A stretch of DNA of 37,638 bases from a virus. The notes beneath the pieces are model-generated. The model was not told the origin of the DNA. It made no database searches and was given only the letters and a program-made list of their open reading frames with translations. Below, piece after piece: positions 6,331-21,545 of this stretch. The stretch spans positions 1 to 37,638 of the IMG/VR virus record IMGVR_UViG_3300036851_000150; one strand, written 5' to 3'. The stretch's first letter is position 1. The number at the start of each line of letters is the position of its first letter. The translations under genes were made by a program, and so were the position numbers.

Positions 6331-7347
6331 ATGCCCGCACCTGGCGTAAGCGAGGTTGCGACCATGACGATGCGCTCCCGCACTGGGGAGCTCGCCGACA
6401 GCGTCACGCGCAACAACGCCGTACTGACCCGGTTCAATGGCCGGGGCCGCATCCGCGAGTTCGTGGGTGGCGGCCGCACCATCATGGAGGAGATCGCCTA
6501 CGCGAATAACGTGACCTACAAGCGGTATGCAGGTTACGAGCTCCTCAACATCTCACCGTCGAGCGTATTCACCGCGGCCGAGTATCCCATCCGGCAGGCG
6601 GCGGTGGCGGTGTCGATCAGCGGCCTGGAGATGCTGCAGAACAGCGGTGAGGAGCAGTCGATCGACCTGCTTGCCAGCCGCATCGAGAATGCGGAGGACA
6701 CCTTCCGCAACGGCCTGTCGTTCGACATCTACTCCGACGGCAGCCTGCCCAACCAGATCGGCGGCTTGCAGGCAGCGATTCCCTTCGATCCGACGACAGG
6801 CGTCTATGGCACCATCGATCGGGGGCAGTGGGAGTTCTGGCGCAACCAGCGCTTCCGGGCAGTCACGGATGGCGGCGCGGCTCTCTCGCCTGCCAACGTG
6901 TACCAGTACATGACCCAGCTCTATGTGCGGTGCACGCGCGGCAACGACCGGCCGGACCTCATCGTCACCGACAACAATGGGTGGACGGTCTACAACCAGT
7001 CCCTCCATGCCATCCAGCGCATCACCAACACCGACAGTGACCTCGGCAAGTCGGGCTTCCTGAACCTCAAGTTCATGGACAGCGACGTGGTGCTCGATGG
7101 CGGCTTCCAGGGCACGACCCAGGACGCGACGCTGGCGGGCCTGCCGGTGGGTGGCGTGCCGGCCTCGGTGATGTGGTTCCTGAACAGCCGGTACAACAGC
7201 TGGCGGCCTCACCGGAACCGCAACATGGAGCCGCTCGACCCCGACCGCTTCTCGGTCAATCAGGACGCCATGGTCCGCCTCATCGGCTGGGCCGGCAACT
7301 TCACCAAGCGCGCCATGCTGTTCGACGGCGTGCTGACCAACACCTGA
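6331..7347 (+). CDS. Major capsid protein
   Basis: A 338-residue coat protein, expected to have the HK97 fold. It is recognised by an N-terminal arm (MRSRTGELADSVTRNNAVLTR), the IREFVGGGRTIMEEIAY strand region near residues 40-55, the AEYPIRQAAVAVSISG segment near 87-102, and the FRNGLSFDIYSDG part at about 128-140. These match podovirus coat proteins of alphaproteobacterial phages as I know them. A good ribosome site (AAGGA) lies 11 bases before the ATG. It follows the scaffold gene, and gene order supports the call. Confidence 0.92.
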   Translation: MPAPGVSEVATMTMRSRTGELADSVTRNNAVLTRFNGRGRIREFVGGGRTIMEEIAYANNVTYKRYAGYELLNISPSSVFTAAEYPIRQAAVAVSISGLEMLQNSGEEQSIDLLASRIENAEDTFRNGLSFDIYSDGSLPNQIGGLQAAIPFDPTTGVYGTIDRGQWEFWRNQRFRAVTDGGAALSPANVYQYMTQLYVRCTRGNDRPDLIVTDNNGWTVYNQSLHAIQRITNTDSDLGKSGFLNLKFMDSDVVLDGGFQGTTQDATLAGLPVGGVPASVMWFLNSRYNSWRPHRNRNMEPLDPDRFSVNQDAMVRLIGWAGNFTKRAMLFDGVLTNT

Positions 7348-7357
7348 GGAGGGCTCG

Positions 7358-7876
7358 ATGTACATCGAGGGTATCAACCCGCGGCGCGTGCTTACGGCTG
7401 CTGATCTGCCTCCGGCCGTCAATGCGGTGCAACCACTGCCCGATGCTGGCGGCGAGGCCCTCGCGCTCGGCACCATGGGACGCGACCAACTCAGCAATGA
7501 GTACATCCTGGTGCTGTCTGGCGCGGCGATCTCCGCAGAGGGCTTTCTCGGGTTCTGGGACGAGAACTTCACGTTCACCCTGATCAGCAGCGCCAACGAT
7601 GTCGGCGGGGTGCCGCTGGCAGCCAATCGAGGGCTGCCGACAGCGGCGGGGCAGAGGTTCTGGGCACAGACCTATGGCATGGGTCTGGTCCAGGCTGCTG
7701 CAGCAGCAGCAGCCGACGCGCTGCTATTCACGTCAGCCACGCCTGGCGCCGTCGATGACGTATCGGCGACGTTTTTCCCCATTGAGGGGCTGGCGTTCAT
7801 GGTGGCGGCAACGGGTGCTGGCGCGTTCAACGCGCGCCTGGCCAACCCGCGGACCGCGTACCTGGTAGGAGCCTGA
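7358..7876 (+). CDS. Putative head decoration or minor capsid protein
   Basis: A 172-residue protein 10 bp after the coat gene, with a strong GAGGAG ribosome site. It is rich in Ala, Gly, Leu and Phe, has no strongly charged helices, and alternates short hydrophobic strands (EYILVLSGAAI, NFTFTLISSAN). This fits a small beta-rich capsid accessory protein. A run of seven alanines near residues 112-118 is encoded by GCW/GCA repeats. The role is inferred from position beside the coat gene, and no named family is recognised. Confidence 0.7.
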   Translation: MYIEGINPRRVLTAADLPPAVNAVQPLPDAGGEALALGTMGRDQLSNEYILVLSGAAISAEGFLGFWDENFTFTLISSANDVGGVPLAANRGLPTAAGQRFWAQTYGMGLVQAAAAAAADALLFTSATPGAVDDVSATFFPIEGLAFMVAATGAGAFNARLANPRTAYLVGA

Positions 7877-9041: not shown

Positions 9042-9974
9042 TTGGCCACCTACCTGGAGATCGTCCAGCTCGCGGCGGACGAGCTCGGCCTGGCCCGGCC
9101 GGCAACGGTTGTCGGGCAGGACGCCCAGACGCGGCAGCTCACCGCGCTCGTCAATCGCGACGGCCGGCAGCTCGTGCTCGACCATCCCTGGACCGAGCTG
9201 CAGGTCGAGTACGTGATCGAGTTCGGCGCGCCCGTTTCCCTCACGGGCGACACGATCGCCGGCTCGCGTGTCGTCGCCAACATCGATACGACAGGGCTGG
9301 CGGCCAATTACTTCGTCGTCAACGGCCAAGGCATCCAGATCAGCTGCCGGATCGCCTCGATCGACAGCCCGACACAGCTGACGCTGACGGAGAGCTGCGA
9401 TGCAACGCAGCTGGCCAATCCGCTCACCTTCACGCGCGACACCTTCGACATGCCGGTCGACTTCGACCGCTTCATCGATCAGACCAAGTGGGACCGGCGC
9501 TTTCAGTGGGCGCTGATCGGCCCGACCTCGCCGCAGCTCGATCAGTGGATGCGGTCCGGCATCGTGCCGACCTCGCCGCGACGGCATTGGCGCCAGGTCG
9601 GCAAGCTGCCCACGGCGTTCCGCGTCTTCCCACCGCCGACAGAGTCAGGCGAGCATCCGGGCACGCTCGTGTGGGAGTACATATCCCGCAACTGGGTGCG
9701 AGACGGTGCCACCGGCGCCTACAAGGACCGCCTGGAGGCCAACACCGACGTGCCGCTGTTCCTCGAGGACATGATGGTGCTCGGCGTCAAGTGGCGCATG
9801 TGGCAGATCAAGGGCTTCGACTACGCGGCGCTGCAGGCTGAGTACATCGACTACGTCAATGCGCGCAGGGCGCATGACGGCGGCATGCCGGTACTTGGCC
9901 TCGCCCGGCGGACCTATCCCTATCTGCTGTCGCCGACGCAGGTCCAGGACGGCAACTTTCCCGGAGCGCCGTAG
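9042..9974 (+). CDS. Head-tail adaptor / tail tubular protein A-like
   Basis: A 310-residue protein that probably sits between portal and tail nozzle. The opening MATYLEIVQLAADELGL is the usual start of this adaptor family in podoviruses. It is followed by an inserted beta domain (about residues 60-130) and the FDMPVDFDRFIDQTKWDRRF region near 133-152. The C-terminal helix ends in ARRTYPYLLSP. The start is TTG at 9042. It is preferred because the family normally begins at this residue and no ATG lies near. Position before the stabilisation protein supports the role. Confidence 0.82.
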   Translation: MATYLEIVQLAADELGLARPATVVGQDAQTRQLTALVNRDGRQLVLDHPWTELQVEYVIEFGAPVSLTGDTIAGSRVVANIDTTGLAANYFVVNGQGIQISCRIASIDSPTQLTLTESCDATQLANPLTFTRDTFDMPVDFDRFIDQTKWDRRFQWALIGPTSPQLDQWMRSGIVPTSPRRHWRQVGKLPTAFRVFPPPTESGEHPGTLVWEYISRNWVRDGATGAYKDRLEANTDVPLFLEDMMVLGVKWRMWQIKGFDYAALQAEYIDYVNARRAHDGGMPVLGLARRTYPYLLSPTQVQDGNFPGAP

Positions 9975-11545: not shown

Positions 11546-12342
11546 TGGCGGAGATCAACCGCAACGTCTGGGACCGCGCGTCGAATTCCTGGCGGCGGCT
11601 TGTCGACAGCGCGTCGATCTCCTGGAGCACGCCCTCGCCGGGTGTGGCCTCGGCTAGCGTCATCCCGCCCGCGACGCCGTTCAACGTCCAGGTCTTTACG
11701 GCCTCGGCCACCTACACGCCGAGCGCCGGCATGCGCTTCTGCCGCATCCGGGTTCAGGCGCCTGGCGGCGGCTCGGGCGGTGCGGATGGCGCCGGCGCTG
11801 AAGGCTCAGGCGTGGCGAGCGGTGGCGGCGGTGCGGGTGAGTATGCCGAGGGGTTCTTCACGGCAGCCTCGATTGGCGCCAGCCAGACGGTTACCATCGG
11901 CGCAAGAGGCGCCGCCGGCAGCACCACGGGCGGCAATGGCGGCACAGGTGGCACCACGAGCGTCGGATCGTTGATCACGGCCATTGGCGGCAGCGGTGGT
12001 ACGGGCACCGGGTCAAACAGCACTGATCCAGGCCCCCGTGCCGGTGGTGCCGGTGGTGCCGGTGGAACGGGCGGTACGCTGCGCATCCCTGGGCAGGCTG
12101 GCGAGTCCAGCGATATCGTGACCGATGAGGCAACGTTTGCGTTGCTGAAGCGCGGCAAGGGCGGCGACTCCTTCCTCGGCCGGGGCGTGCCGCCTGGGCC
12201 GTTCGACAACGGGACGCCAATCGCTGCAAGTGCAGGTCCGAACTATGGAGCAGGCGCAACGGGCGCCTACGCAAGCAGCGACGTCGGCGTGGCCGGCGCT
12301 CTGGGTGGCGCCGGCATCGTGGTCATCGAAGAGTTCTTCTGA
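11545..12342 (+). CDS. Glycine-rich tail tip / receptor-binding candidate
   Basis: A 265-residue protein. Residues 1-50 form a short anchor (RNVWDRASNSWRRLVDSASI). Residues 50-75 contain FTASATYTPSAGMRFCRIRVQAPGGG, a common opening of phage glycine-rich domains. From residue 72 on, about half of the residues are Gly, Ala or Ser, in runs such as GGAGGAGGTGGT. It ends in AGIVVIEEFF, the terminal hydrophobic strand of such domains. Gly-rich tail-tip proteins can bind host surface receptors through polyglycine-II-like folds. Here that is inference. The ATG overlaps the previous stop. Confidence 0.75.
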   Translation: MAEINRNVWDRASNSWRRLVDSASISWSTPSPGVASASVIPPATPFNVQVFTASATYTPSAGMRFCRIRVQAPGGGSGGADGAGAEGSGVASGGGGAGEYAEGFFTAASIGASQTVTIGARGAAGSTTGGNGGTGGTTSVGSLITAIGGSGGTGTGSNSTDPGPRAGGAGGAGGTGGTLRIPGQAGESSDIVTDEATFALLKRGKGGDSFLGRGVPPGPFDNGTPIAASAGPNYGAGATGAYASSDVGVAGALGGAGIVVIEEFF

Positions 12343-12346
12343 CGCC

Positions 12347-12754
12347 GTGCCGCTGCTCACCGGCCATGACCAAGCCGTCGCCACCTGGGTCGCCGCGCAC
12401 CTCGGCATCCCGATCGCGCCGCCCTACGTGGCGCTCGGCGTCATCGATGCCAGCGGCACGCTGATCGGGGGCGCCGTGTTCCATGGGCACTGCGGTGCCA
12501 GCATCGACGTGACGATCTACGGCCCGGGCGCCCTGACGCGAGGCGCGCTGCGGGCCACGTGCCAATACGTGTTCGGCCAGCTCAGATGCGAGCGGCTCGG
12601 CGCATTCTGCAGGCGCACGAATGTACCGACGCGCAAACTGGTGGAGCGGCTGGGCTTCCGCCTCGAGGGCGTGGCGCGCAGCTACTGGGAAGAGGGACGG
12701 GCAGGTGACGCGATGATCTACGGTATGCTGAAAGCGGAGTGCCGCTGGCTATGA
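12347..12754 (+). CDS. GNAT-family N-acetyltransferase
   Basis: A 135-residue protein with the pattern of a small GNAT/RimJ-like acetyltransferase: a beta-strand N-terminus (YVALGVIDASGTLIGGAVFHG), a helix (ALRATCQYVFGQLRCERLGAFC), then RRTNVPTRKLVERLGFRLEG, which matches the acetyl-CoA-contacting C-terminal region. GTG at 12347 is taken as the start; the open frame upstream of it overlaps the Gly-rich gene and is probably not used. The ATG of the next gene overlaps its stop. Such acetyltransferases occur among late genes of many podoviruses. The substrate is unknown. Confidence 0.85.
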   Translation: MPLLTGHDQAVATWVAAHLGIPIAPPYVALGVIDASGTLIGGAVFHGHCGASIDVTIYGPGALTRGALRATCQYVFGQLRCERLGAFCRRTNVPTRKLVERLGFRLEGVARSYWEEGRAGDAMIYGMLKAECRWL

Positions 12755-13713
12755 ACGCTCCCAAGCCGCCCGACCCGGTGAAGACTGCGCAGGCCCAGGC
12801 GGACATGAACACTCAGACCGCCACCACGCAGTTCCAGTTGGGCGCGACCAACCAGCAGACGCCATACGGCTCGCTCACCTATAACCAGATCGGCACCTGG
12901 GACGACGGCACGCCGCGCTTTGAAGCCACCACGGCGTTCTCGCCGGAGCAGCAGCAGCTCTACGACCAGCTGGTGTCATCCCAGAGCCAGTTCGGCAACA
13001 TCGCCGGCAACCTGCTCGGCAACGTCAGCCAGTCCCTGTCGACGCCCTGGGACGCCAACGCGGGGGCGGCAACCCACATCACGGACATGCAGCGCACGTT
13101 CATGGATCCCGAGTGGGAGAGTCGTGAGCAGGGCCTCACCGCGCAGCTCGCCGCGCGGGGTCTGACCCCCGGCGGCGAGGCCTGGGACGAGCGCATGGGC
13201 GACCTCTTCGATGCGCGCGGTGACGCCTACAACCAGATGTACCTCGATAGTTACCGTACGGCGATGGACGCGAGCCTGCGCGAGCGCACGCAGCCGCTGA
13301 CCGAGCTCACCAGCATGCTGAGCCTCACGCAGCCCCAGATCGGGTCGTTCCAGACGACACCGCAGCCCGGCGTTGCGCCCGTCGACTACTCGGGCCTGGT
13401 GCAGAGCAATTACGCTGCCGAGAACGCCAACCATCAGGCCATGATGGCCGGCCTGTTCTCGATCCCAACGGCGATTGCGGGCGGCTGGGCGCGGGGTGGG
13501 ATGCCGATGCCATCGGACCGCCGCCTCAAGACGGACGTGGAGCGCATCGGCGCCGACCCGCGCGGCTTCGGTGTCTATGCCTACCGCTATCTGTGGGATG
13601 CGCCCGGCACCCAGCGCGTGGGCGTCATGGCCGACGAGGTGGCGCCGATCGCGCCCGAGGCCGTTCTCATGCACCCGGCCGGCTGGCTCATGGTCGACTA
13701 CGGAGCGCTGTAG
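12751..13713 (+). CDS. Virion protein with C-terminal S74-type chaperone domain
   Basis: A 320-residue protein with an ATGA overlap to the acetyltransferase; a GTG 12 bp upstream is the alternative start. Residues 1-250 are Gln/Thr-rich and mostly helical, like podovirus internal or tail-associated proteins. Residues 255-320 look like a peptidase S74 intramolecular chaperone: SDRRLK at 255-260, then the strands FGVYAYRYLW and RVGVMADEVAPIAPEAV, ending MVDYGAL. In endosialidase-type S74 domains a Ser and a Lys five residues later form the self-cleavage dyad. S255 and K260 have that spacing. S74 domains usually help a trimeric fibre fold, so attachment to this upstream region is of interest. 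Confidence 0.8.
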   Translation: MNAPKPPDPVKTAQAQADMNTQTATTQFQLGATNQQTPYGSLTYNQIGTWDDGTPRFEATTAFSPEQQQLYDQLVSSQSQFGNIAGNLLGNVSQSLSTPWDANAGAATHITDMQRTFMDPEWESREQGLTAQLAARGLTPGGEAWDERMGDLFDARGDAYNQMYLDSYRTAMDASLRERTQPLTELTSMLSLTQPQIGSFQTTPQPGVAPVDYSGLVQSNYAAENANHQAMMAGLFSIPTAIAGGWARGGMPMPSDRRLKTDVERIGADPRGFGVYAYRYLWDAPGTQRVGVMADEVAPIAPEAVLMHPAGWLMVDYGAL

Positions 13714-19937: not shown

Positions 19938-20138
19938 CTAGAGGCTCAGCAGCTTTCCGAGCAGCAACGGCGACACGGCGGCCGCTATGAGGACGGCGTA
20001 GAGCTTGGCGTGCCAGCGGCGCTCAGCGGCCTTGATCTGCTGAAACTCGATCTCGCGCGCTGCCTGCCATGCCTCGGCAGCGGCCATCTGACGGGCCAGA
20101 ACGGCGCGGCGAATGACGTTGTGGTGGTAACGGATCAT
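19938..20138 (-). CDS. Small tail-anchored membrane protein
   Basis: A 66-residue protein on the opposite strand to its neighbours. Residues 1-44 are helical and charged (RQMAAAEAWQAAREIEFQQIKAAERRW), and residues 46-62 are a membrane segment (AKLYAVLIAAAVSPLLLGKLL) close to the C-terminus. ATG at 20138 is chosen over the longer open frame (to 20219) because it overlaps the stop of the next gene upstream (ATGA), which implies translational coupling. It ends 8 bp from the stop of the convergent 511-residue gene. Holin, antiholin or superinfection-related roles are possible, and none is shown. Confidence 0.65.
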   Translation of the reverse strand: MIRYHHNVIRRAVLARQMAAAEAWQAAREIEFQQIKAAERRWHAKLYAVLIAAAVSPLLLGKLLSL

Positions 20139-20302
20139 CGTGCGCCTACTGTTGAGTTGGCAATTGCCGACGCGACCACAGCGATACACCAAACAGCTGA
20201 GATGACGCCAAGCGGCCAAGCGAAAGCGAACAGCCCCACTGTCACGACGATCATGCCGCCGATGATCGCGAGTAGCATGAGAAACGCACCAAATCTGCCC
20301 AT
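20135..20302 (-). CDS. Very small two-span membrane protein
   Basis: A 55-residue protein read leftward from the ATG at 20302. A strong ribosome site, GGGGAGG, lies 5 bases before the start, and the stop overlaps the ATG of the next gene (ATGA). Almost the whole sequence is hydrophobic, in two spans: residues 7-25 (FLMLLAIIGGMIVVTVGLF) and 30-49 (PLGVISAVWCIAVVASAIAN). The size and topology are those of a small holin-like or exclusion-type membrane protein. Codon use and ribosome site support a real gene. Function unknown. Confidence 0.65.
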   Translation of the reverse strand: MGRFGAFLMLLAIIGGMIVVTVGLFAFAWPLGVISAVWCIAVVASAIANSTVGAR

Positions 20303-20414
20303 GTCAACCTCCCCAATATTCCGCCTACGCTACCCGCTCCGCCAACTTCACACAAGCTGAACAAATCAAGCCCGGTCGCATCCGTGACCCACGCGCCACA
20401 GAGGAGAATGTGCC
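20303..20414. other. Divergent intergenic region with likely promoters
   Basis: About 110 bp between the leftward small-membrane pair and the rightward tail fibre. It contains the ribosome sites of both directions (leftward at about 20308-20314, rightward at 20401-20406) and is lower in GC than most of the window. Promoters for both units would have to lie here, but no clear paired -35/-10 boxes could be picked out by eye. No coding frame here is supported. Confidence 0.4.
20401..20406 (+). promoter_or_regulatory. Ribosome binding site supporting an ATT start
   Basis: GAGGAG lies 8 bases before an ATT codon at 20415. The first in-frame canonical start, GTG at 20445, has no Shine-Dalgarno-like sequence upstream. 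The in-frame codons between the preceding TGA (20385) and the ATT include no ATG, GTG or TTG. The site therefore argues that translation begins at the ATT. Confidence 0.65.
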
Positions 20415-21545
20415 ATTCCGTATAATGGCTCAGGCACCTATACCGTGCCCAACTCATTCACCCCCGCCACGACGATCCTCTCGTCGGCCGTGAATGCGAA
20501 TTTCACCGACATCGCGACCGCGCTGTCGTCGGTGCTCACGCGCGACAACCAGGCCCCGATGACGGCGCCGCTGCGGCTGGCCGACGGCAGTCAGCCGTTG
20601 CCGGGCCTGCAGTTCGCCAACGACACCAACACGGGCTTGCGCCGCTCCGGCGCCGATGAGATGCGCTGGGTCGCGGGCGGCAACGACGCCATGTACGTCG
20701 ATGCCGACGGCAAGATGTGGCAGCTGGGTGCACTCGACGTGGCCGGTGCCGTCAACCTGCAGGCGGCGCTGGCAGCGCTGACGGCGGTGCTGGCGGCGGC
20801 CGCTACGCCCCTCACGCTCAGGCGCACGGAGAACGACACCACCGAGCGGGAGGCCGAGACTATCCAGTCCGGCTCCGGCGCCGGCGCCAAGTACTCAAGG
20901 CGCATCGTCGGCACGGGGGCGAACGCAATCAACCTGGTCCGTGAGTACCTCGGCTCGACGCAGATCACAGAGGTCGGAGACACCTTCTCCAAGCTGTTCG
21001 TGCAGCTTGTTATCGGCCTGAACTCGCGGATCGTGCTGCACCCGGACGGATACACTGACCTTGCGGAGATCGCCACTCCGGCCAATCCGGCGGCGAATGT
21101 GGCGCGGGTATATGTGAGAGACACTGATGGCGTGACCGAGCTGGCGTGGCGGGACAGCGCCGGGTTCGTGAGCGTGCTGCGCAACGCTGATCAAGGTGAC
21201 ATGCAGGAGACGGGTGACCGCTCGGTGACTGCCAACGTGCAGCACTTCCACCCGGGGCATCCGAAGGCGTGGGGGGCTGTGGATGGCGGCGCCGGCACAC
21301 TACTGGCTGGCTACGGAGTGGCTAGTGTGTCGCGAACCGCGACGGGCAATTTCCTCATTACACTGGAGGAGGCGATGTCAGGAGACTACGCAGTGATCGC
21401 CACCGCTCAGCAGGGTGATTTCACTATCCGTGCTGCCCAGTATGAGTTCATCAATTCCACACAATTCCGCATCCGCACTGTTGCTGGCAATAGCACAGCG
21501 GTCAATTTGAGCTTCTCATTTGAGGTTAAGGGGACGCTTGCTTGA
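20415..21545 (+). CDS. Tail fibre protein (apparent ATT start)
   Basis: A 376-residue protein. From the ATT at 20415 it begins (f)MPYNGSGTYTVPNSFTP, the normal opening of many phage tail-fibre proteins, followed by ATTILSSAVNANFTDIATALS. Starting at the GTG at 20445 would remove the first ten residues of this motif. The middle (about residues 75-230) holds short fibre repeats such as LRLADGSQPLPGLQFANDTNTGLRR. The C-terminal domain (about 280-376) is beta-rich, including NFLITLEEAMSGDYAVIATAQ, a shape like other receptor-binding tips. It probably attaches to the virion by its N-terminus and binds the host. No depolymerase or S74 domain was seen. The 3' end overlaps the antisense methyltransferase by 30 bp. 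Confidence 0.82.
   Translation: MPYNGSGTYTVPNSFTPATTILSSAVNANFTDIATALSSVLTRDNQAPMTAPLRLADGSQPLPGLQFANDTNTGLRRSGADEMRWVAGGNDAMYVDADGKMWQLGALDVAGAVNLQAALAALTAVLAAAATPLTLRRTENDTTEREAETIQSGSGAGAKYSRRIVGTGANAINLVREYLGSTQITEVGDTFSKLFVQLVIGLNSRIVLHPDGYTDLAEIATPANPAANVARVYVRDTDGVTELAWRDSAGFVSVLRNADQGDMQETGDRSVTANVQHFHPGHPKAWGAVDGGAGTLLAGYGVASVSRTATGNFLITLEEAMSGDYAVIATAQQGDFTIRAAQYEFINSTQFRIRTVAGNSTAVNLSFSFEVKGTLA

Follow-up and report, generated by a model that had tools for sequence, protein, structure and literature searches.

How translation begins on the tail-fibre gene of the virus record IMGVR_UViG_3300036851_000150 is not obvious, since no ATG, GTG or TTG stands where its protein appears to start. 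The window analysed, which is the whole record of 37,638 nt (37.6 kb), carries terminase, portal, capsid and lysis genes, with the fibre gene on the plus strand at 20415..21545. Translation from the ATT codon at 20415..20417 gives a protein of 376 aa opening IPYNGSGTYTVPNSFTP... The last in-frame stop before it is TGA at 20385..20387 and the first canonical in-frame codon is GTG at 20445..20447 (codon 11), with no in-frame ATG, GTG or TTG between the two. A Shine-Dalgarno (SD) sequence, GAGGAG at 20401..20406, lies 8 bases 5' of the ATT at an aligned spacing of 15, and its anti-SD duplex of -9.1 kcal/mol was matched in strength at just 2.6% of random positions in the same genome. The ATT, the GAGGAG 8 bases before it, the TGA and the GTG had been described in an earlier sequence-only reading and were confirmed in the sequence. 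Within the SD-start gap, and absent from that reading, is an out-of-frame AUGUG (20408..20412), whose ATG (20408) and GTG (20410) have aligned spacings of 8 and 10 and open only MCHSV* and a 27-codon frame. The ATT was mostly paired in the predicted fold of the window (unpaired probability 0.07), which weighs against the explanation favoured below.

The encoded protein carries the conserved fibre N-terminal block xNGSGxx...NANFTDIA...RDGQA, with PYNGSGTY as its own version of the family N-terminus [PA][YFR]NGSG, and this region matches the tail fibre of Myxococcus phage Mx9. Its C-terminal part matches the curated tail-fibre families PHROG 11355 (4.8e-9) and PHROG 3484 (2.9e-7), and a Pfam search of the fibre returned no match. 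Searches with the 511-aa protein encoded upstream gave no relatives, those of genome contigs gave no close relative and those of plasmids gave no fibre match. Methionine aminopeptidase removes fMet ahead of proline; with proline as residue 2 the fibre probably loses its fMet, in which case its mature form would be identical whichever start codon is used.

To locate the start, homologues were assembled from an IMG/VR protein search, a profile search, capsid-collected relatives in which fibres were found by profile, and a DNA-pattern scan of IMG/VR. The protein search gave 18 loci with related N-termini, and in 17 of these the codon aligned with the ATT is ATG, GTG or TTG. The exception, L002, is the closest of them (first 95 residues 82% identical) and reads TAGGAGGCCGCC-ACG. 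This locus is part of G001, a sister phage with portal and capsid (MCP) proteins 78% and 95% identical to those of the window and with a TAG four codons upstream of its ACG. Additional homologues outside the close group, found by the profile search, all have canonical starts where the N-terminus is alignable. Among capsid-related phages the aligned fibre start is ACG in G012, ATA in G015, CTG in G007 and ATT in both G027 and G032, as well as ATG, GTG or TTG in others. The sequence-only reading had proposed such an alignment as a check, and the ATT position does coincide with the homologues' start codon, usually ATG. Its identification of ATT 20415 as the true fibre start is therefore well supported by exact alignment with the ATG, GTG and TTG starts of dozens of homologues, and we regard this assignment as very likely to be correct. 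Its further suggestion of a recent ATG to ATT change, understood as a private accident, was not supported, as the sister phage also lacks ATG and four non-canonical codons occur across seven related phages.

The DNA-pattern scan required GGAGG and, 6-11 bases on, the motif, but placed no constraint on the start codon. It recovered true fibres with ATG, TTG and GTG, the known ACG, ATA and CTG cases and two further unambiguous ATT fibres, L308 and L312 (duplicate L315), and no true fibre with a codon other than ATG or a single-base neighbour of ATG. One ATT candidate, L283, was excluded on account of an in-frame ATG four codons upstream, and L305/L317 and L274 were not fibres. Nine near-cognate fibre starts were thus collected, each one base from ATG and preceded by AGGAG(G) or GGGAGG. 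The non-canonical codons of the seven capsid-related cases are all single-base neighbours of ATG, for which the chance with seven random sense codons is approximately 4e-7. A near-cognate start can be assigned without reservation in the window, G001, G007, G012, G032, L308 and L312. The assignment is only probable in G015 and G027, because in-frame canonical codons lie upstream (ATG at -40 in G015 and TTG at -6/-7 in G027). G023, G027, G028, G030 and G031 carry fibre paralogues with this N-terminus in tandem, two or three per phage; in G027 the first alone starts with ATT and the others with ATG.

A one-base indel, whether real or a sequencing error, could in principle make ATG 20408 the true start, with the frame then reached one base off (MAIPYNG), and this ATG does lie only 7 bases upstream of the ATT and one frame off. 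However, an ATG is missing from that site in the sister phage, which carries ACG at the same codon as the ATT, the start in relatives falls exactly at the ATT position and several other phages show the same pattern. No initiation is reported at a 5' AUG at a spacing as short as 8-10 (PMC9841429), and by this rule ATG 20408, at 8, is too close to the SD. We consider an indel exceedingly unlikely. The ATT is almost certainly neither a sequencing error nor a private mutation. Because the pattern recurs in relatives known from separate metagenome records, it is improbable that resequencing would yield ATG at 20415-20417.

Translation from GTG 20445, with the preceding 10 codons untranslated, would avoid a near-cognate start, and this GTG is both the first in-frame canonical codon and kept in the sister phage. 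As the sequence-only reading had stated, it lacks a ribosome site: no SD precedes it. The first canonical in-frame codon of the seven cases falls at 11, 11, 49, 41, 16, 17 and 37, so that in members other than the window and its sister it is at quite different positions. This scatter, together with the lack of a shared SD, also led to rejection of a scheme in which two isoforms arise through a conserved downstream start. Comparison of the window with G001 over codons 2-10 gave five synonymous and two non-synonymous differences (pN/pS 0.14). The comparison of G007 (CTG) with G012 (ACG), where the first canonical codons are 49 and 41, covers codons 2-40 that lie entirely before any canonical codon, and here 26 synonymous changes at 28 sites were found against 10 non-synonymous at 89 (pN/pS 0.12), much like the value of 0.09 between two members with ordinary starts. 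Across same-subgroup members with non-canonical starts pN/pS was 0.09-0.14 over codons 2-15 or 2-40. Such strong purifying selection on codons ahead of any canonical start indicates that the segment is translated and makes initiation at GTG 20445 barely conceivable. Since the segment is translated, in-frame stops lie 4-12 codons upstream and canonical starts are lacking, initiation must take place at the near-cognate codon.

If ribosomes reached the frame from upstream, through readthrough of a stop codon or coupling to the preceding gene, the start codon would be irrelevant. Several relatives have an in-frame TAG within TAGGAGG, 12 bases before the start, and this TAG terminates a same-strand gene in G007, G010 and G011. 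The nearest upstream gene is, however, on the opposite strand in the window, G001, G012, G015, G027 and G032. The geometry of a TAGGAGG followed by 5 bases makes the in-frame TAG unavoidable, and the window lacks a TAG at this site. Nor would readthrough need seven of seven codons to be one base from ATG, and this explanation is very unlikely. The nearest upstream neighbour in the window is a divergent minus-strand ORF of 55 aa (20135..20302), membrane-protein-like (MGRFGAFLMLL...), whose stop is overlapped by the start of a second minus-strand ORF of 66 aa (19938..20138; MIRYHHNV...). Small minus-strand genes adjoin the fibre gene upstream at the same place (19938-20302 in the window) in G006, G009, G012 and G015. 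In four relatives the fibre start is 12-30 bases away from that of a conserved protein (QFCI.VAV.GSNG.YHWTPNG) encoded on the opposite strand, and in G001 and G032 the opposite-strand upstream gene is lipoprotein-like instead. An Rfam search found no element at the start site. A phage-encoded unusual initiator tRNA was rejected as an explanation, there being no tRNA in the window or the sister phage and one tRNA-Asn in G032.

The near-cognate starts are accompanied by strong ribosome-binding sites. In the seven capsid-related cases the SD duplex ranges from -7.3 to -10.9 kcal/mol, and only 0.4-2.8% of random positions in the respective genomes are as strong. Five of the seven have an aligned spacing of 13 and the other two of 15, compared with an E. 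coli optimum of approximately 13-14 (PMC9841429). Over 76 fibre homologues the mean SD energy was -6.4 for ATG starts (n=60) versus -9.1 for non-ATG starts (n=16; Mann-Whitney p=1.3e-4, kinship uncorrected), a trend present both inside and outside the close group. Fibre starts for this comparison were placed by protein homology and not by SD, so the trend is not built in. Other genes of the same genomes, with starts chosen automatically, showed the reverse, non-ATG starts having the weaker SD. One fibre, L080, has an ATG start yet a strong SD, and the trade-off is not strict. Predicted local folding around the start did not differ between start classes, and RNA structure at the start was rejected as an explanation accordingly.

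Whether missing canonical starts are peculiar to the fibre gene was assessed in 19 related phage genomes, in which 285 conserved gene instances were screened for a lack of canonical starts 5' of the conserved N-terminus. On inspection the true cases were the fibres of the window, G001, G007, G012 and G032 plus one other gene, in G016 (ATC); the remaining flags arose because the alignment extended into the end of an upstream gene that overlaps the one tested, and the test was unable to flag G015 or G027. It supersedes a laxer genome-wide scan that flagged 90 of 348 instances, mostly through the same run-on. Of the 92 relatives assessable for the capsid gene, 91 start it with ATG and one with TTG, so that non-canonical starts number 7/44 for the fibre versus 0/92 for the capsid (Fisher p=2.6e-4, indicative given related sequences). 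The G016 gene (11782-12798, minus strand) encodes a 338-aa homologue of the product of window 12739-13713; its near-cognate start is TAGGAGGCTCCG-ATC, in the context TATAGGAGGCTCCG-ATC-GACGCACCG, with no in-frame canonical codon until residue 100 of the open frame. At approximately 6931-7446 (plus strand) of G001 is a small gene, presumably RusA-like as judged by eye, in which the codon aligned with window GTG 35508 is CTG (GGAGGGCCGGGGCC-CTG). On the plus strand of the window the terminase gene at 803 starts with TTG, as in the sister phage, and a 310-aa gene at 9042 has a TTG start where the sister phage has GTG.

These data also bear on the possibility that the ATT is the start and that near-cognate codons are simply tolerated drift, the strong SD making the codon nearly neutral while mutation erodes ATG. 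Turnover of the codon is indeed fast: ATT in one phage corresponds to ACG in another at 95% capsid identity, and the capsid tree requires at least six changes between canonical and non-canonical fibre starts. Drift should, however, also strike other genes with strong SDs, yet canonical starts are retained in the capsid gene and in nearly every other one. Near-cognate initiation is weak in E. coli, and neutrality would thus require that the fibre is not limiting. We regard drift as a possible but doubtful account; the retention of canonical starts in nearly all other genes is better accommodated by selection on fibre dose than by accident.

The best explanation overall, which we consider probable, is a near-cognate ATT start behind a strong SD through which fibre output is limited. 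AUU 20415 would be read by initiator fMet-tRNA positioned by the SD at 20401-20406, and the strong SD would compensate for the weak codon such that initiation is adequate yet capped. Selection may hold fibre output in a low-to-middle range; a weaker SD ahead of ATG and a strong SD ahead of a near-cognate codon would each satisfy it, allowing the codon to turn over freely. That the fibre level is set by this trade-off between SD and start codon is, to our judgement, evenly balanced. The low or regulated fibre translation put forward in the sequence-only reading would fit the pairing of a strong SD with a weak codon. If near-cognate starts are checked by IF3, fibre output would rise as IF3 activity per ribosome falls. 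Such a link is plausible by analogy with infC and sigR, although physiological regulation of the fibre start by IF3 is a tentative and rather unlikely proposal. Unlikely too is its fullest form, in which near-cognate starts behind near-perfect SDs in this group of environmental phages would hold fibre synthesis down under IF3 gating until a late-infection fall in IF3 activity per ribosome, the initiation state of the host would time or dose assembly, and the arrangement would have evolved repeatedly.

To our knowledge, well-characterised bacterial genes with starts beyond ATG, GTG and TTG are few (infC and sigR), and a partial literature search found no report of recurrent starts of this kind in phage fibre genes. 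The window ATT is very probably one instance of non-canonical initiation that recurs in this lineage and in an unexpected gene class. Repeated near-cognate starts, with four codons and an SD strength that tracks codon weakness, amount to a natural experiment on the trade-off between start codon and SD. By implication, gene callers limited to ATG, GTG and TTG would clip the N-terminus of these fibres or start tens of codons late, just as they misplace the starts of sigR and infC. The cultured relatives compared are the Myxococcus phages Mx8 and Mx9 and the Stenotrophomonas phage BUCT555, which have a related capsid and fibre N-terminus. They differ from the window in that BUCT555 has ATG at the homologous fibre position, whilst Mx8 p64 and Mx9_p14 (L100 and L101) have a 30-residue signal-peptide-like extension with an ATG start before a TRNxxGTY motif.

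Comparison with infC, which encodes IF3, starts with AUU in E. coli and AUC in Streptomyces and is restrained by IF3 (PMC5472188), shows the same use of a near-cognate AUU as a genuine start. However, infC belongs to the host, has a housekeeping role and is part of an autoregulatory loop, whereas the fibre gene is a phage structural gene whose codon is not conserved and which has no apparent feedback. The sigR gene of Streptomyces has a GTC start with an extensive RBS, AGGAGGTG, is repressed by IF3, and through its non-canonical start limits the dose of one protein relative to its partner (PMC5472188). It shares with the fibre gene the combination of a non-canonical start and a strong ribosome site, and differs in being a host sigma factor with a single codon and a demonstrated dependence on IF3, whereas the fibre codon set varies. 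In common with genes of the infC and sigR type, the fibre gene has no canonical in-frame start from the upstream stop to its conserved coding sequence and has a strong, correctly spaced SD.
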